DNA from: Verrucomicrobiota bacterium
GTDB lineage: Bacteria > Verrucomicrobiota > Verrucomicrobiia > Limisphaerales > VHDF01
Reading direction: 5' to 3'
DNA length: 52,793 nt
Assembly: GCA_016871495.1 (NCBI GenBank)
Contig: VHDF01000030.1
Span: 1 to 52,793 of the forward strand
Shown here: positions 41,761-52,581 of the stretch, in pieces
Numbering within the stretch: position 1 is the stretch's first letter
Layout: each line of letters opens with the position of its first letter
Position numbers and translations under genes: made by a program
The notes under the pieces: model-generated
Databases searched by the model: none
What the model was told of the DNA's origin: nothing
The model's input: the letters and a program-made list of their open reading frames with translations, nothing else

Positions 41761-42054
41761 TTAGTCCACAATCGCCAGGATGTCGTCCGAATTCAGGAGC
41801 TTGTACTCCTTGCCGTCGAGCTTCACTTCCGTTCCACCATACTTGCTCACCAGCACTCGGTCGCCAACCTTGACTTCAAACGGAATTTTCTTCCCGTTAT
41901 CATCGGTCTTGCCCGTGCCCAAGGCGCGGACCAAGCCCTCGGTGGGTTTTTCCTTGGCGGAATCAGGAATAATGATACCGCCCTTTTTCACTTCCTTCTC
42001 CTCGACGGGTTCGACCAGAACACGGTCGCCGAGCGGTTTCAGGTTCAGTGCCAT
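41761..42054 (-). CDS. groS: Co-chaperonin GroES
   Basis: 10-kDa lid of GroEL, 97 residues. Starts [18 protein letters not shown]; the mobile loop is [17 protein letters not shown], then [31 protein letters not shown] and DILAIVD, all family standard. The frame is open 140 bp upstream to dnaK but that part is not GroES-like, so the ATG at 42054 is chosen. The 137-bp space to dnaK contains an 8-bp perfect hairpin at 42110-42129. Confidence 0.97.
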
Positions 42055-42109
42055 AGTTGTATGCTTCGCTTTGGTTCTTACTGCTTTGCTGCTTTGGACC
42101 TGTTCATCG

Positions 42110-42129
42110 CCCGCGGCACCCGCCGCGGG
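42110..42129. repeat. 8-bp hairpin in the dnaK-groES spacer
   Basis: Arms CCCGCGGC and GCCGCGGG around a four-base loop. No T-run on the minus strand. It may attenuate or process the dnaK-groES message. Confidence 0.5.
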
Positions 42130-42191
42130 AAAACGGAGTTTGGCCGGACGGGGGATGTTTCCGCCGGCCGTCTCACTCCCCAGGTTCGAAA

Positions 42192-44141
42192 TCACTTTTT
42201 CGGGTCATCCACCACTTCCGCGTCGATAATCGGGCCGTCGTTCTTGCGACCGGATGGGCCGCCGACGCTTTCGCCCGCAGCTTCGCCGGGAGGCTTGTCC
42301 GCCCCATCGCCGCCCGCCCCCTGACTGGCTGAGGCCTGCTTGTAAAGTTCCGCCGACACGGACTGCCATGCGGCGTTCAATTGCTCCGACGCCGTGCGAA
42401 TGGCCTGCGCATCGCCGCTCTTCAAAGCCTCTTGGACCGCCGCCGCCGCCTTCTCGATCTTGGCCTTGTCCTGCCCTGGAATTTTGTCGCCGCTTTCCTT
42501 GAGCATTTTCTCCGTGCGGTAAACCGCATTGTCCGCCTCGTTCCGAGCCTCCACTTCCTCGCGGCGGCGCTTGTCGTCGTCCGCGTGGGACTCGGCGTCC
42601 TTGCGCATGCGCTCCACCTCGTCCTTGGAAAGCCCGCTCGAGGCCGTAATGGTGATCTTCTGCTGCTTCCCCGTGCCCAAATCTTTAGCGTTCACGTTCA
42701 GGATGCCGTTCGCATCGATGTCAAACGTGACCTCGATCTGCGGCACTCCCCGTGGCGCCGGCGGAATGTCCGTGAGCTGGAATTTTCCAATGGTCTTGTT
42801 GTCCCGGGCGAACTGCCGCTCGCCCTGCAACACGTGAATCTCCACCCCGGGCTGACTGTCGGAGGCCGTGGAGAAGATTTCCGATTTACGGGTCGGCACC
42901 GTTGTGTTGCGCTCAATGAGCCGCGTGAACACTCCCCCCAAAGTCTCGATGCCCAGCGAAAGGGGCGTGACGTCAAGCAACAATACGTCCTTCACGTCAC
43001 CCTTCAGCACTCCACCCTGGATCGCCGCGCCGACCGCCACGACTTCGTCGGGATTCACGCCCTGATGGGGCTGCTTGCTCACCAGCGCCCGCGCCGTCTC
43101 CACCACCCGCGGCATGCGGGTCATGCCCCCCACCAGCACCAACTCGTCGATCTTCTCCGCCGGCAGCTCGGCGTCCTTCAAACAGTTCCGCGTGGGCAAC
43201 ATCGTGCGCTCGAACAAATCGTCGCACAATTGCTCCATCTTGGATCGGCTCAGCTTCAGACTGATGTGCTTCGGGCCGCTCGCATCCGCCGTGATAAACG
43301 GCAAATTGATGTCGTACTGCTGCGAGCTGGATAGAGCGATTTTCGCCTTCTCAGCTTCTTCCTTGATGCGCTGCAGCGCGTCGGCCTGCTTGCGCAGATC
43401 CATTCCGTGCTCACGCTTAAACTCGTCCAGAATCCAATCGATGATCTTGTTGTCCCAATCATCGCCGCCCAAATGCGTGTCGCCGTTGGTCGCCTTCACC
43501 TCGAACACCCCGTCCCCGATCTCCAGCACCGAGATGTCAAACGTCCCCCCTCCCAAATCGTAAACCGCGATTTTTTCGTCCTTCTTCTTGTCGAGCCCGT
43601 AGGCCAGCGAAGCCGCCGTCGGCTCGTTGATGATGCGCAACACTTCCAAACCCGCAATCTTCCCCGCGTCTTTGGTCGCCTGGCGCTGCGAATCGTTGAA
43701 ATATGCCGGCACAGTGATGACAGCCTGGGTGATCGTCTCCCCCAAACGCAGCTCCGCATCCGCCTTCAGCTTGGCCAGAATCATGGCTGAAATCTCGGGG
43801 GGGCTGTAAATCTTGACCTTACCCTCGGCCTCCACTTCCACCGCGGCATCCCCATTCGCGGCCCGCACCACCTTGTACGGCACCCGCTTGATCTCTTCCT
43901 GAACCTCCTCGTACTTGCGCCCCATGAAACGCTTGATCGAATAAACCGTGTTCCGCGGGTTCGTCACCGCCTGACGCTTGGCCGCGTCACCCACGAGCCG
44001 CTCACCCGATTTCGCGAATGCCACCACCGACGGTGTCGTCCGCTTGCCTTCGGAATTCTCCAAAACCAAAGGCTCGCCCCCCTCCATCACCGCCATACAG
44101 GAGTTCGTCGTTCCAAGATCAATGCCAATGACTTTTGCCAT
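42192..44141 (-). CDS. dnaK: Chaperone DnaK (Hsp70)
   Basis: ATP-dependent Hsp70, 649 residues. Nucleotide-binding domain: [72 protein letters not shown], and [11 protein letters not shown]. Linker [19 protein letters not shown]. Substrate-binding domain and helical lid end in [10 protein letters not shown], the usual acidic tail. A strong GGAGGTGA ribosome site precedes the ATG. It heads dnaK-groES-groEL. A GrpE-like gene is divergent across about 245 bp. No inverted-repeat CIRCE site was found upstream by eye. Confidence 0.98.
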
Positions 44142-47470: not shown

Positions 47471-48049
47471 ATGGCTACGAAGCATTCGATGAAAAGTCTG
47501 GTTTCCTTGCTGACATGGGTGCTGCTGTGGAGCGCCCCCCTCCAGGCCGCCCCAGGGGCGGGGAGTCGCGAAGTGGGTCTGTCCGTCGGACAGCCAGCGC
47601 CGGATTTCCGATTGCTGGACCAATCCGGAAAAACGGTGAGTTTGGCAGAAATGCTCAAGAAAGGCCCGGTCGCCCTGGTCTTCTTTCGTTCGGCGGATTG
47701 GTGACCCCACTGCCAGAAGCAGTTGGTTCAACTGCAACAAGCGGCGAAAACAATCGAAGCGTCAGGGGGCCAGGTCGCCGGGATCAGTTTTGATGCCGTG
47801 GAAGTTCTGCAAAAATTCGCCCAACGGCGTGGCATTGCTTTCCCCCTTCTGTCCGATCCCGGCAGCAAAACCATCGACGCCTATCGCATTCGCAACGAGG
47901 AAGCCGAAGGACGCACCCGCGGCATTCCTCATCCCGGCACGTTCATCGTGGATCGAAAAGGAGTGGTCCGATCCAAGTTTTTCATGGAGAGTTACAGCGA
48001 TCGCCACCCCCCAACCGTTCTCGCCGAAGCCTTGAAAGCAGCTCGATAG
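47471..48049 (+). CDS. Exported redoxin (peroxiredoxin/thioredoxin-like) with in-frame UGA at the active site; candidate selenoprotein
   Basis: Read through the TGA at 47702-47704, this is one 192-residue exported thioredoxin-fold protein. Signal peptide: KSLVSLLTWVLLWSAPLQA. Domain start: VGQPAPDFRLLDQSGKTVSL. Active site: LVFFRSADW-UGA-PHCQKQL, where relatives carry WCPxCxxQL, so the UGA replaces the first Cys of CxxC. After it the fold continues without frame change: GGQVAGISFDAVEVLQKFA, IAFPLLSDPGSKTIDAYRI, GIPHPGTFIVDRKGVVRSKF. A 7-bp hairpin with a G-first loop lies 14 nt past the UGA. Selenocysteine (UPHC) fits all of this; a nonsense mutation or sequencing error is the alternative. 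The ATG at 47489 (MKSL) is an alternative start. Probable role: periplasmic disulfide or peroxide chemistry. It ends 311 bp before the DksA-like gene. Confidence 0.8.
47702..47735 (+). promoter_or_regulatory. Candidate bacterial SECIS element
   Basis: TGA at 47702-47704, then 14 bases, then a perfect stem GCAGTTG (47719-47725), loop GTT (47726-47728), CAACTGC (47729-47735). The apical loop starts 21 nt after the UGA and its first base is G, within the spacing and loop rules I recall for bacterial SECIS (short stem, loop of three or more bases, G among its first two, loop about 16-37 nt after UGA). A competing fold pairing ACTGC (47709-47713) with GCAGT (47719-47723) is also possible. Confidence 0.65.
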
Positions 48050-48360
48050 AGAGGCTCCCGCCCACACCCTCCGTCGATTGCCGAAAACGGCTCCGTTGCC
48101 GTCCTGTCCAGACGCACCGCCTAAACACCTGCCACGAGGCTGATTGGACCGCCAACCGGCCAGGGATGCGACCCGCCCATCGAAGGTCTTCGTCGAGACT
48201 GTTCTGAGCGCAAAAAGCTCTCGAATTTTGACAATCTTTTTTGTGGCTTTTTCGATTTCTCCTGATAGGTTCCTCCGCCTTTGCCAGGCGCAACGAAGTC
48301 CTTCGGGAAATTTCCTCGCATGGTGAGCCCTTTGTTCACGGCCTTAAAACAAAGCAAGTT
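48050..48360. other. Intergenic region before the DksA-like gene
   Basis: No gene recognised. A consensus TTGACA at 48228-48233 is a possible -35, with no equally good -10 at 17 bp. T-rich tracts occur at about 48235-48260. Confidence 0.45.
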
Positions 48361-48951
48361 GTGACGACGAAAAAGACATCCGTCAAGAAACGCGCGCCTC
48401 ATCCGGCGCACAAATCCAAGTCGGTCGGTTCGGCGACTTCCGCCTCGATCTTGGGCGCCGCGTCGGTGGTGGCGGCCAACAACGGGGTCCCTCCGCACAT
48501 CCGGCACGAATGGGTCAAATACTACAAGAACTTGCTCGATTTGCGGGAGCGCCTGGCCAATCAAATGAGTGGCTTGGCCAAAGAATCCGCCGAGGAGATG
48601 TCGACCTACAGCCTCCATATGGCCGATTCCGGCACCGACAACTTTGACCGGGACTTCGCCCTCAGCCTGCTTTCCTCGGACCAGGATGCGATCTACGAGA
48701 TTGAAGAAGCTCTGAAACGCATCGAAAAAAACGCTTACGGGATCTGTGAACTCACCGGCAAACCCATCCCCAAAGCCAGGCTCGACGCCATTCCGTGGAC
48801 TCGTTTCACGGTGGAGGCTCAAGCGCAACTCGAACGGGACGGCGCCCTGCGTCAGCGCAAATTAGGCACATTGGGAACGGTGGACACTGTTGGCGCGGTG
48901 GAAACCGAAGAGGAAGAGGCCGAGGAAAAACCCGCCAAGGAGAAAGAATAA
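48361..48951 (+). CDS. TraR/DksA-family protein with degenerate zinc finger
   Basis: A 196-residue protein from a GTG start (VTTKKTSVKKRAPHPAHK). A Lys-rich N-terminus is followed by a coiled-coil region (HEWVKYYKNLLDLRERLANQ, MADSGTDNFDRDFALSLLSS) and a C-terminal DksA-type globular part: IEEALKRIEKNAYGICELTGKPIPKARLDAIPWTRFTVEAQAQ. The normal finger is YGxCxxCGxxI...RLxAxPxTxxCxxCQ; here only the first Cys remains and the others are replaced by Thr, Thr and Ala-type residues, so zinc binding is probably lost. DksA-like proteins bind RNA polymerase in stringent and stress control. An acidic tail (EEEEAEEKPAKEKE) follows. In the same direction as rpmG. TTG codons further upstream are less likely starts. 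Confidence 0.78.
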   Translation: MTTKKTSVKKRAPHPAHKSKSVGSATSASILGAASVVAANNGVPPHIRHEWVKYYKNLLDLRERLANQMSGLAKESAEEMSTYSLHMADSGTDNFDRDFALSLLSSDQDAIYEIEEALKRIEKNAYGICELTGKPIPKARLDAIPWTRFTVEAQAQLERDGALRQRKLGTLGTVDTVGAVETEEEEAEEKPAKEKE

Positions 48952-48975
48952 CTTTCCGCAGAACTTGAATTTTTT

Positions 48976-49143
48976 ATGCCTCGCGAGATCGTCACCATCG
49001 AATGCACGGAAGCGCGCAAAGAGGGCAAATCCCCCTCCCGCTACCAAACTTCCCGCAACAAAAAGCTGAAAACGGAAAAGATCGAGATCCGGAAGTACAA
49101 CCCGGACCTCAAGCGGCACACGCTTCATCGGGAAATCAAGTGA
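48976..49143 (+). CDS. rpmG: Ribosomal protein L33, zinc-ligand-free type
   Basis: A 55-residue large-subunit protein. It reads [20 protein letters not shown], then [20 protein letters not shown] and [14 protein letters not shown]. The NKK(x)T(x)EK(x)E(x)(x)K(Y/F)(D/N)P core matches L33. The CxxC pairs of zinc-binding L33 are absent (a single Cys at 10). It starts 25 bp after the DksA-like stop and ends 6 bp before the S18 start, so it is in the same transcript. Confidence 0.9.
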
Positions 49144-49149
49144 TCGTTT

Positions 49150-49407
49150 ATGCCACGCAAAAATCAAAAAGAGAAAGACAGCAAAGGCCGCGGCGGGAGA
49201 AGCCACGAAACCCGCACCCCCAGGCCCAAGCCCAAGATCGATTTCACCTTCGACGCCCTTGATTTCAAGAACGTCACCCTGCTGCGACAATTCGTGACCG
49301 ATCGCGGCCGCATTCTGCCCCGCAAATACACGGGGCTGCCCGCCCATTATCAGCGCCGCTTGAACCAGTCCATCAAGCGCGCCCGAGAAATGCTGCTCAT
49401 GAAGTAG
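49150..49407 (+). CDS. rpsR: Ribosomal protein S18, Cys-free type
   Basis: An 85-residue small-subunit protein. A basic N-terminal tail is followed by the S18 core: FDALDFKNVTLLRQFVTDRGRILPRKYTGLPAHYQRRL (shown in pieces: IDFTFDALDFKNVTLLRQF; RILPRKYTGLPAHYQRRL) and KRAREMLLMK. No Cys, so no zinc site. Starts 6 bp after L33; a strong terminator follows at 49432. Confidence 0.93.
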   Translation: MPRKNQKEKDSKGRGGRSHETRTPRPKPKIDFTFDALDFKNVTLLRQFVTDRGRILPRKYTGLPAHYQRRLNQSIKRAREMLLMK

Positions 49408-49431
49408 TTCGCGGCTGCAAAGTCCTTGCCA

Positions 49432-49461
49432 CCCCAATCCGCCGTTGCGGATTGGGGTTTT
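49432..49461 (+). terminator. Rho-independent terminator after rpsR
   Basis: Perfect 10-bp stem CCCCAATCCG / CGGATTGGGG, a six-base loop and a four-T tail. It separates the DksA-like/L33/S18 transcript from znuA, only 20 bp before the znuA start. Confidence 0.85.
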
Positions 49462-49475
49462 GCATGCCAGCTTCG

Positions 49476-49490
49476 TGCAAATGAATTGCA
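49476..49490 (+). promoter_or_regulatory. Candidate Fur/Zur-type operator over the znuA start
   Basis: TGCAAATGAATTGCA is a 7-1-7 inverted repeat with six of seven pairs matching, the spacing of Fur-family boxes. It covers the znuA start codon (49481) and follows the rpsR terminator, so it lies where an operator for a Zur-repressed zinc operon would be expected. The sequence itself is not identical to known Zur boxes I can recall. Confidence 0.4.
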
Positions 49491-50452
49491 GCAAAGACCC
49501 ATGGCTCCGGAGGTTCGTCTGGATCTGGCTTGCCGCGATCGGGCAGGTCAGCTTCGGAGCCACCGGAATCCTTCCGGTTCAAGCGCAAGCATCCGGGGAC
49601 ACGAACCGCCCCCCCTTGATCGTAGCCGGATCCTATCCCGCCTACTGCCTGGCGGTCAAAGCCGCCGGCCCGCTCGCTCGAATCGAGGTGGTGGGCGGGA
49701 CCGAAACAGGTCCTCACGGACACCAACTGACCCCCAGCGAGCTCCGAAAACTTGAAGAGGCACGGCTCGTGGTTCTGCTCGGACTCGGTCTCGAAGGATG
49801 GGCCGAGAAATACCGGGCCATGAGGGGCAGCCGCACTTCCCCGGTCATCGTCGAATGCGCGGCCGGACTTTCCGCCGAGTTGATCACCGGCGATGACAGA
49901 CACGGACACGCGCCGGGCGAAGGCCATGAGCATGCCTCCGCCGGTTTCAACCCCCACATCTGGCTCGACCCCGTGCTCGCCCGGCATGCGGTCAGGAACA
50001 TCGAACGCGCCTTGGTCCAGACGTTCCCGGAACAAGCGGACGCCTTCCGCAAACAAGCCCGCGCGGGCGAGGCCGAACTGGAAACGCTCCACCAACAGAT
50101 CGAGTCCGCCTTGAAAGAGGTTCGCATTCGGAAAGTGGTCACCTATCATGATGCTTTTCCGTATTTCTTTAAACGGTTCCAGCTCCAGTCCGCCGACGTC
50201 GTCCAGCCGCAGGCCGATGCCAGCCCTACTCCCCGCACCCTGGCTCGACTGGCCAAGCGCATGCGCGAGGAAAAGATTCGTGTGGTCTTCACCGAGCCGC
50301 AATTCAATCCCGCGCACGCGCAGAGGCTCGCCCGGGATCTGGGTGTCGAAACGGCTTCCCTCGACACCCTCGAAACCGGCGAGCTGGATCCGAGACACTA
50401 CGACCGGGCCATGCTTCTCAATGCGCGCACACTCGCGCGGTTTCTCCGATGA
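49481..50452 (+). CDS. znuA: Zinc ABC transporter substrate-binding protein, ZnuA-like
   Basis: A 323-residue periplasmic cluster A-I solute-binding protein. Signal-like start MNCSKDPWLRRFVWIWLAAIGQ is followed by ATGILPVQAQASGD, where ATGILPV arises from a short palindrome (49562-49578) probably inserted in the gene. The fold follows: PLIVAGSYPAYCLAVKAAG, TGPHGHQLTPSEL with a metal His, VVLLGLGLEGWA, the His-rich loop RHGHAPGEGHEHASAG, NPHIWLDPVLA with a second ligand, VTYHDAFPYFFKRF, and VFTEPQFNPAHA. The His-rich loop favours zinc over manganese. The upstream frame to 49445 is not supported. znuC overlaps its stop by ATGA. Confidence 0.88.
   Translation: MNCSKDPWLRRFVWIWLAAIGQVSFGATGILPVQAQASGDTNRPPLIVAGSYPAYCLAVKAAGPLARIEVVGGTETGPHGHQLTPSELRKLEEARLVVLLGLGLEGWAEKYRAMRGSRTSPVIVECAAGLSAELITGDDRHGHAPGEGHEHASAGFNPHIWLDPVLARHAVRNIERALVQTFPEQADAFRKQARAGEAELETLHQQIESALKEVRIRKVVTYHDAFPYFFKRFQLQSADVVQPQADASPTPRTLARLAKRMREEKIRVVFTEPQFNPAHAQRLARDLGVETASLDTLETGELDPRHYDRAMLLNARTLARFLR
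49562..49578. repeat. Short palindrome inside the znuA export region
   Basis: ACCGGAA TCC TTCCGGT, perfect 7-bp arms. It encodes part of GATGILPV, the peptide that I recall recurring in Verrucomicrobia and Planctomycetes proteins where an interspersed repeat has inserted. Confidence 0.6.
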
Positions 50453-51252
50453 GCCGTGGCCTCCCAGTCGTCTCCATCCGCGGACTCCGCGTTTCCCTCG
50501 GCGGGCAGGAGGTCTTGCGCGGAGTGGATTTCGAGGTGAACGAGGGAGAACTGGTCGCTTTGATCGGACCCAACGGGTCCGGGAAGACCACACTGCTCAG
50601 GTGTTTGCTCAGGTTGCAGGGCGTCCAGGCGGGAGAGATCAGACTCTGGGGATGCCCCCCCACCCCGCCGGTATTGCGGCGAGTGGGTTACGTGCCGCAG
50701 CGGCTGAATTTGGAACCAAGTTTTGTGCTCAGCGTGCGGGAGTTTTTGGCGTTGAAACGGCAAGACACCCGCACTTGGTTCGTGCAGCGCAAATCGACCA
50801 CAGACCACGCGCTGGAGCGTTGGATCAGCGAGTTCGATTTGAGGTCCCTGCTCGACCGCCCGGTGGCACGGCTCTCCGGAGGGCAGTTGCAGCGGGTGCT
50901 CATCGCATTCAGTCTCTTGAATGATCCCGAACTGGTCGTCTTCGATGAGCCCACCGCCGGGGTGGACACACCCGGGGAGCAATCGTTCTATGAAATGATC
51001 GGCGAAGTTCAGTCGCGTCGCAAGATCACCGCCTTGCTCGTCTCCCACGATTTATCCATGGTTTACCGGCATGCCTCGCGGGTCGTCGCGCTGAACGGAG
51101 TCGTTTGTTGCGAAGGGACTCCGGAGGAGGTCATGAACGCCGAGTCACTGAAAGCCGCCTACGGCATCCATGTGGCCCCCTACCATCATCATCATCATCA
51201 CGGACATCCGCATGACCATCCACACCTGCCTCACCGAGGAGGCGAGCGTTGA
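50449..51252 (+). CDS. znuC: Zinc ABC transporter ATP-binding protein, ZnuC-like
   Basis: A 267-residue ATPase. Walker A GPNGSGKTTLLRCLL near residues 43-57, Q-loop VGYVPQRLN, signature LSGGQLQRVLIAFSLL near 144-158, Walker B ELVVFDEPTAGVD near 163-175, and the switch His in LLVSHDLSMVY. The C-terminus is a His cluster (HHHHHHGHPHDHPH), probably zinc-binding, an unusual placement in an ATPase of this family. Overlaps znuA by ATGA and precedes znuB by 11 bp. Confidence 0.92.
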   Translation: MSRGLPVVSIRGLRVSLGGQEVLRGVDFEVNEGELVALIGPNGSGKTTLLRCLLRLQGVQAGEIRLWGCPPTPPVLRRVGYVPQRLNLEPSFVLSVREFLALKRQDTRTWFVQRKSTTDHALERWISEFDLRSLLDRPVARLSGGQLQRVLIAFSLLNDPELVVFDEPTAGVDTPGEQSFYEMIGEVQSRRKITALLVSHDLSMVYRHASRVVALNGVVCCEGTPEEVMNAESLKAAYGIHVAPYHHHHHHGHPHDHPHLPHRGGER

Positions 51253-51263
51253 AGTATTAGCCC

Positions 51264-52070
51264 ATGTTTGAAGAGCCCTTCATGAGACGTGCCCTGCTGG
51301 CCGCCGTGTTGCTCGGCCCCCTGTGCGGGGGACTGGGGGTTTTCGTCATGGCCCGGCGCATGTCCTTTTTTAGCGACACCGTCTCCCATGGCGCCCTCAC
51401 CGGGATTGCCGTCGGCCTGTTTTTTGGACTCACCGACCCCACTTTGCCCATGTTGGCCTTCAGTCTCGGGATCGCCGGAGCCATCCTGTGGCTGAAACAG
51501 AGAACCGCGCTCCTGACCGACACCATCATGGCCATCCTGATGTCAGGCTCGATGGCGGCGGGCATCCTCCTCATCACGCGTCAAAAAACTTATGTTGGCG
51601 ACCTCCATCGCTACCTTTTTGGTGACATCCTGATGATCGACAGCCGCGATTTGTGGCTGGCCGGCGCTCTGGGTGCGGGGACATTCCTCTGGTTGTGGCG
51701 CCAGCTCAGCCCGCTCGCCCTGCTGACCGCCCACGAGGAGCTGGCGCACGTGGCGGGCATATCGGTCAGCCGCTTGAATTGGGGGTTCACGGCTCTGATG
51801 ACGCTGGCCGTCACCATGAGCATCCGTTTGCTCGGCATCGTGCTCGTGACGTCCTTGCTCGTCATTCCAGCCGCGGCGGCACGCAACGTGAGCCGCAATC
51901 TGCGCCAGCATCTCTTGCTCGCGGTTGGGGCTGGCCTGGCAGGCGGAGTCGGAGGCACCACGCTTTCTTACCAGTTTGATCTGCCGTGCGGCCCAAGCAT
52001 TGTGATGACTTGCGTGGCTCTTTTCCTTGTTTCCCTGCCCGCCCGGAATGTCGTCCGGAGCTCCGCCTGA
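51264..52070 (+). CDS. znuB: Zinc ABC transporter permease, ZnuB-like
   Basis: A 268-residue integral membrane permease with about eight helices. Typical opening MRRALLAAVLLGPLCGGLGVFVMARRMSFFSDTVSHGALTG, quoted in part: GVFVMARRMSFFSDTVSHGAL is the well-conserved family segment. Further on: YVGDLHRYLFGDILMIDS, HEELAHVAGISVSRLNWGFT and the later IRLLGIVLVTSLLVIPAAAA, all typical of ABC-3 permeases. Third gene of znuA-znuC-znuB. Confidence 0.92.
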   Translation: MFEEPFMRRALLAAVLLGPLCGGLGVFVMARRMSFFSDTVSHGALTGIAVGLFFGLTDPTLPMLAFSLGIAGAILWLKQRTALLTDTIMAILMSGSMAAGILLITRQKTYVGDLHRYLFGDILMIDSRDLWLAGALGAGTFLWLWRQLSPLALLTAHEELAHVAGISVSRLNWGFTALMTLAVTMSIRLLGIVLVTSLLVIPAAAARNVSRNLRQHLLLAVGAGLAGGVGGTTLSYQFDLPCGPSIVMTCVALFLVSLPARNVVRSSA

Positions 52071-52104
52071 AAACGAATCCACCCGTCGAACGACGGACCA
52101 CGAT

Positions 52105-52581
52105 ATGAAATGCCATTGCCATCCTCAGCCGACCGGAGACATGAACGCCCTGGCGGGCCAATTGAGGAAGACCTCTCGCCGGGTCACGGGCCCTCGCAAA
52201 GCCGTGCTTGAATTGCTGCGCCGCCATCGTCATCCCATGACGATCAAAGAAATTCACGACTCCGTTTCACATGAGAGCGTGGATCTCGCCACGGTTTACC
52301 GGTCCATGCACCTGCTGCAGGAGATGGCACTGGTCAAGAAATTCGATTTCGGTGACGGCGTGGCCCGCTACGAAATGACCGAGGAAGGGGGACGCGGACA
52401 CCATCACCATCTTGTCTGCCGACGCTGTTTCTTGATCGTTGAAGTCGAAACCTGTTTTCCGTCGGAGCTGGAATCAGGAATTGCCTCCAAACATGGCTTC
52501 TCCGAAGTCACTCACACTCTGGAATTCTTCGGAACCTGTCCACGCTGCCGGAACCTCCCTGATCCACGGGTAATTCGGTAG
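52105..52581 (+). CDS. zur: Fur-family regulator, probable Zur
   Basis: A 158-residue Fur-family metalloregulator. Winged helix (about residues 15-85): TSRRVTGPRKAVLELLRRHRHPMTIKEIHD, shown in part, and VDLATVYRSMHLLQEMALV, the recognition helix. The dimer domain has GRGHHHHLVCRRC and later TCPRC, two Cys pairs that form the structural zinc site, with the His cluster in the sensor region. The N-terminus MKCHCHPQ adds more ligands. Its place at the end of the zinc-uptake operon supports zinc sensing (Zur) over iron. The ATG at 52105 is chosen because the frame upstream runs into znuB and is not Fur-like. Confidence 0.88.
   Translation: MKCHCHPQPTGDMNALAGQLRKTSRRVTGPRKAVLELLRRHRHPMTIKEIHDSVSHESVDLATVYRSMHLLQEMALVKKFDFGDGVARYEMTEEGGRGHHHHLVCRRCFLIVEVETCFPSELESGIASKHGFSEVTHTLEFFGTCPRCRNLPDPRVIR

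Follow-up and report, generated by a model that had tools for sequence, protein, structure and literature searches.

Probable selenocysteine at an in-frame UGA in a Prx-like UxxC redoxin of a Verrucomicrobiota bacterium

Selenocysteine is almost certainly encoded by an in-frame TGA in a redoxin gene of a Verrucomicrobiota bacterium of the order Limisphaerales (GenBank assembly GCA_016871495.1, contig VHDF01000030.1), where its insertion via SelB and a downstream hairpin would yield a UxxC redoxin that is probably exported from the cytoplasm. The gene lies near the end of the window, by which is meant the whole stretch of 52,793 nucleotides that was analysed. With the ribosome at the UGA (47702-47704), SelB carrying Sec-tRNA(UCA) would bind a hairpin at 47719-47735, and selenocysteine would be put in where termination would otherwise occur. 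The original prediction, that Sec is inserted at this UGA to give the sequence UPHC, is supported by the selenocysteine machinery of the genome, by the alternation of UGA and Cys among relatives, by constraint on the codons that follow the UGA and by covariation in the hairpin.

The coding sequence occupies 47471-48049 on the plus strand and specifies 192 amino acids followed by a TAG stop (48047-48049). Between the ATG at 47471 and this TAG the sole internal stop is the TGA at 47702-47704, confirming the single interrupted frame described earlier; a second in-frame ATG, at 47489, is an equally plausible start. Read through the TGA, the product consists of one PF00578 (AhpC-TSA) domain that spans the codon unbroken (residues 39-168, E 1.8e-35, 122 bits against a cut-off of 26), with homologous sequence on both sides. 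The UGA is codon 78 and aligns with the first Cys of the CxxC of relatives. It lies in the motif F-R-S-A-D-W-U-P-H-C, in which U78-P-H-C81 fits the UxxC pattern; Cys81 (TGC, 47711-47713), the putative resolving partner, is the sole Cys of the protein. A probable signal peptide (MATKHSMKSLVSLLTWVLLWSAPLQA) is encoded at 47471-47548, its cleavage site being predicted by reading of the sequence, and the N-terminus is hydrophobic in most of the UGA orthologues, so that the redoxin is probably an exported or periplasmic protein.

The gene belongs to an already catalogued kind, the UxxC Prx-like selenoproteins, UxxC redoxins having earlier been named a recurrent bacterial selenoprotein type. PF00578 selenoproteins with UxxC have been listed as "Prx-like thiol:disulfide oxidoreductase" (PMC13188914, Table 1, exemplar WP_010940744.1), as "Prx-like 1" (PMC2398784) and as "Prx-like protein UXXC" (PMC1088965). 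Like the window gene, these have the PF00578 domain, the UxxC pair, a bacterial SECIS element just after the UGA and homologues with Cys. Compared with the exemplar WP_010940744.1, to which it is likened by domain and motif rather than by alignment, the clade of the window protein is probably exported and carries R-S-A-D-W-U-P-x-C. The cd02970 (PRX_like2) domain is also of the CxxC Prx-like type, a likeness drawn from its description, but its catalogued Sec form is UxxS (PMC13188914), whereas the window has UxxC. Annotated plasmid homologues of the window protein are named "peroxiredoxin-like family protein". The SelL-related redox proteins (NF040769) likewise have a Prx-like domain with a redox pair, and their model matches all 25 members of the redoxin alignment at E below 0.001; the window protein scores 58.7 bits against a curated cut-off of 120 and hence is not a member, and in a search of the NCBIfam models with this protein none reached its cut-off. 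A Verru_Chthon cassette model gave a weak match below its threshold, in keeping with a verrucomicrobial source. Peroxiredoxin selenoproteins of the TxxU type, with Sec at the peroxidatic position (PMC13188914), are PF00578 proteins too, but in the window protein it is Cys81 that aligns with the peroxidatic residue, and Sec precedes it by three positions.

The fold bears on what the protein might do. A confident AlphaFold model shows a Trx fold (mean pLDDT 89.8) in which the redox pair sits where a helix begins. The nearest solved folds are those of the AhpE and BcpB peroxiredoxins, ResA-type reductases being lower in the list; the AhpE match has a TM-score of 0.91 over the target at 34% identity, and one structure matched, 4xih, is the AhpE R116A mutant. 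In the alignment with AhpE, Cys81 takes the place of the peroxidatic Cys, Sec78 that of a Thr and a Pro that of Arg116, the AhpE Cys, Thr and Arg being its catalytic residues. The Thr-x-x-Cys and catalytic Arg of a classical peroxiredoxin are therefore absent as a set: of the three residues only the Cys is found, and the same two replacements, Thr by Sec and Arg by Pro, set the protein apart from AhpE/BcpB and PrxQ peroxiredoxins, with which it has the fold in common.

Since two peroxiredoxin active-site residues are lost and what is left is a thioredoxin-like UxxC that opens a helix, sequence and model together make an exported thiol:disulfide oxidoreductase with a Sec-Cys pair the best reading, ahead of a classical peroxidase. 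Sec78 would make the nucleophilic attack and would then be resolved by Cys81, three positions later, as an internal selenenylsulfide. Disulfide reduction or exchange outside the cytoplasm would be the most likely activity, and peroxide reduction a less likely one. The chief alternative is that the selenoprotein is a genuine peroxidase of the peroxiredoxin type, Cys81 being peroxidatic and Sec78 resolving, as its best structural matches (AhpE and BcpB) and the alignment of Cys81 with the AhpE peroxidatic Cys would suggest. We consider this unlikely, though to be taken seriously: Sec78 stands where the catalytic Thr would be and Pro where the catalytic Arg would be, and a UxxC beside a Pro-containing loop resembles the thioredoxin-type reductases.

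Relatives were gathered by searches of genomes of the class and the order. TGA is found at codon 78 in 15 sequences, namely the window gene and 14 relatives from its order that are 44-61% identical to it, and Cys (TGC or TGT) is found there in seven sequences of the clade. The proposal that the TGA stands at the place of the first Cys of CxxC thus agrees with both forms, which align at this one codon. It had also been suggested that homologues be compared there, and the comparison favors selenocysteine: the codon is UGA or Cys according to the presence of selA, which occurs in 14 of 15 genomes with the UGA form and in none of six with the Cys form (Fisher P = 1.3e-4). Within a sample of the class, selA was above cut-off in only 57 of 384 genomes, but in all seven that have an inspected UGA redoxin. 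The one genome of the 15 with the UGA form but no selA, G389, lacks selB as well. Because this bin is 85% complete and a search for EF-Tu at E 1e-30 gave no match in it either, the missing selA is probably an assembly gap; the G389 copy of the redoxin also has a second TGA.

A more distant second group of UGA genes (L033, L034, L035, L036, L038, L080 and L083) has hydrophobic helices before the domain and the motif W-U-P-L-C or W-U-P-F-C, and a strong hairpin just 3' of the UGA is common to L033-L038. A scan of genome contigs with the single protein returned only two weak archaeal loci.

One could suppose that the gene is dead, a Cys codon having mutated to TGA, or that TGA is a misread Cys codon, and two observations lend this some color. 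The gene comes from a single assembly in 201 contigs, and one Cys-form relative (L030:1510-2010, minus strand) carries an in-frame TAG where the window has Gln84; that relative is from G164, a genome given as 100% complete and without selA, and its TAG would appear to stem from a recent nonsense mutation or from an error in base calling. Yet TGA recurs at the same codon in 14 further genes, UGA tracks selA, and purifying selection is equally strong after the TGA. Between the window gene and L059, amino-acid identity is 58% before the UGA and 62% after it, and after it second codon positions differ by 21% and third positions by 60%; other sequence pairs show the same pattern. To judge from these comparisons, codons 3' of the UGA are constrained as strongly as those 5' of it, and the third-position excess points to protein-level selection on the downstream part, which is not expected of a pseudogene. 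Together with the PF00578 domain that crosses the TGA, this agrees with the earlier view that family character is kept on both sides of the codon. A pseudogene or sequencing error is accordingly very improbable.

The means of inserting selenocysteine are present in the same assembly, which amounts to 5.06 Mb in 201 contigs and is 97% complete. The check for selA, selB, selC and selD that had been proposed found all of them above their cut-offs: selA (477.8 bits, far above), adjoining selB (255.8 bits); selD (300.7 bits); and tRNA-Sec (60.9 bits) with the anticodon TCA (UCA). The refuting outcome named beforehand, a genome devoid of sel genes, thus did not arise. The selD gene lies in an open frame of 755 residues, fused to an N-terminal domain that, on reading of the sequence, would be named NADH-dehydrogenase-like (L017, G000:C44:14694-15602). 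What looked like two TGAs in an EF-Tu gene proved to be an artefact of match ends, the EF-Tu frame being open for 411 residues.

A second UGA redoxin of this genome (L027:320-883, minus strand; G000:C126:464-856) reads AFTGG-U-TAEC around its UGA. It is predicted to have a signal peptide, and its hairpin is spaced from the UGA about as in the window gene. It too is probably a selenoprotein, of the Prx type, and its UGA seems to fall on the peroxidatic position, as in the TxxU peroxiredoxins.

A SECIS-like hairpin had been predicted without a position; comparative evidence places it best at 47719-47735 on the plus strand, as a stem of 6 bp (GCAGUU/AACUGC; closure of the loop G-C would make it 7 bp) with a 5-nt apical loop, GGUUC, that is 20 nt from the UGA. 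Alifold on the 15 UGA sequences gave one helix, columns 24-29 with 35-40, corresponding to these window positions. The helix is paired in 90 of 90 cells across the 15 genes, while slid controls are 0-44% paired, and two pairs are changed on both sides, in six cells in all, which none of 500 shuffles reached. All these compensatory substitutions are synonymous. CAG/CTG turns into CAA/TTG, and TTG or TTA opposite CAA or GAA turns into CTG opposite CAG or GAG; a G-U intermediate is seen in L062. Because Leu and Gln codons alone would favor some pairing, synonymous codons were also resampled; 59.6 Watson-Crick pairs of 90 were expected, with a maximum of 73 in 20000 trials, and 89 were observed. 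The P values for covariation and resampling are too small, the sequences being related. On the tree the U-A to C-G change is found in the L062/L068/L072 clade and independently in L064, which makes at least two events. Among the seven Cys genes the hairpin has decayed in six, where 2-4 of its six standard pairs remain; L031 retains five.

The bacterial SECIS model quoted in PMC13188914 calls for a loop of 3-9 nt, an upper stem of 4-16 bp, a distance of 16-37 nt from UGA to loop, a G in the first two loop positions and a minimum free energy of -7.5 kcal/mol or lower. The window hairpin is within the limits for loop (5 nt), stem (6 bp) and distance (20 nt), and the loop has the G, both in the GGUUC of the window and in all 15 sequences, which begin it with GGU, AGU or CGU. 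The 17-nt hairpin alone has an energy of -7.4 kcal/mol against the published -7.5; the UGA with its flank reaches -10.8 kcal/mol, but from a competing fold. This competitor is a local hairpin (ACUGC/GCAGU, 47709-47723, plus strand) favored when the isolated RNA is folded in silico, in which 47709-47713 pair with 47719-47723 and the conserved hairpin has a pairing probability of 0.03 (isolated window RNA). Since the isolated fold prefers the competitor, a single sequence alone would not have revealed the conserved hairpin. When the UGA is in the A site, the ribosome would keep the 5' arm of the competitor near or inside itself and may thereby free the SECIS arm. A Cmscan of 47600-47900 matched only an miRNA model, judged to be chance. 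The Rfam SECIS_1 model (RF00031), which presumably describes the eukaryotic element, found no match in the genome; it found none in control genomes either and is hence uninformative.

Leaky readthrough of UGA is known in bacteria, and the codon could in principle be decoded by a near-cognate tRNA or stand for Trp, Cys or some other amino acid, but this is hardly credible here, given that the Sec machinery is complete, UGA is the terminator in several orthologues, Cys occurs at the codon only in homologues from genomes without selA, and the hairpin persists in the UGA genes but has decayed in six of the seven that have Cys. An alternative genetic code is set aside in view of the conservation, the constraint and the machinery.

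Most members of the close clade in the tree have the UGA form, with two nested Cys groups (L030/L031, and L069 with L071, L074, L075 and L079); three UGA/Cys changes are counted over the whole tree, in which support is weak at the root and at several forks. The pattern fits a Sec ancestor of the close clade with two Sec-to-Cys reversals. One may go further and propose, tentatively and at a little below an even chance, that the exported RSADW-U-P-x-C clade is a separate, uncatalogued subfamily, with Sec ancestral and at least two Sec-to-Cys reversals upon loss of selA, the SECIS element decaying afterwards.

The neighborhoods of eight relatives were examined and showed no conserved partner. Downstream of the window redoxin, 48241-52581 is a likely zinc-starvation cluster that includes a DksA/TraR-like protein without most of its zinc-finger cysteines, a bL33 without Cys pairs, bS18, a zinc ABC transporter (substrate-binding protein, ATPase and permease) and a Fur-family regulator; this neighborhood is not common to the redoxin relatives. 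On the minus strand at 41761-44141, groES adjoins dnaK, their frames overlapping by a few bases.

In the RSADW-U-P-x-C clade UGA and Cys forms, the presence of selA and the decay of the hairpin can be compared side by side; if the proposed history is true, the clade would be a natural series for watching the loss of Sec coding. For the organism itself, ordinary annotation would end the protein at residue 77 and call the remainder a separate fragment or pseudogene; recognising the Sec codon corrects the gene model and indicates that this bacterium would use selenium in an exported redox enzyme.
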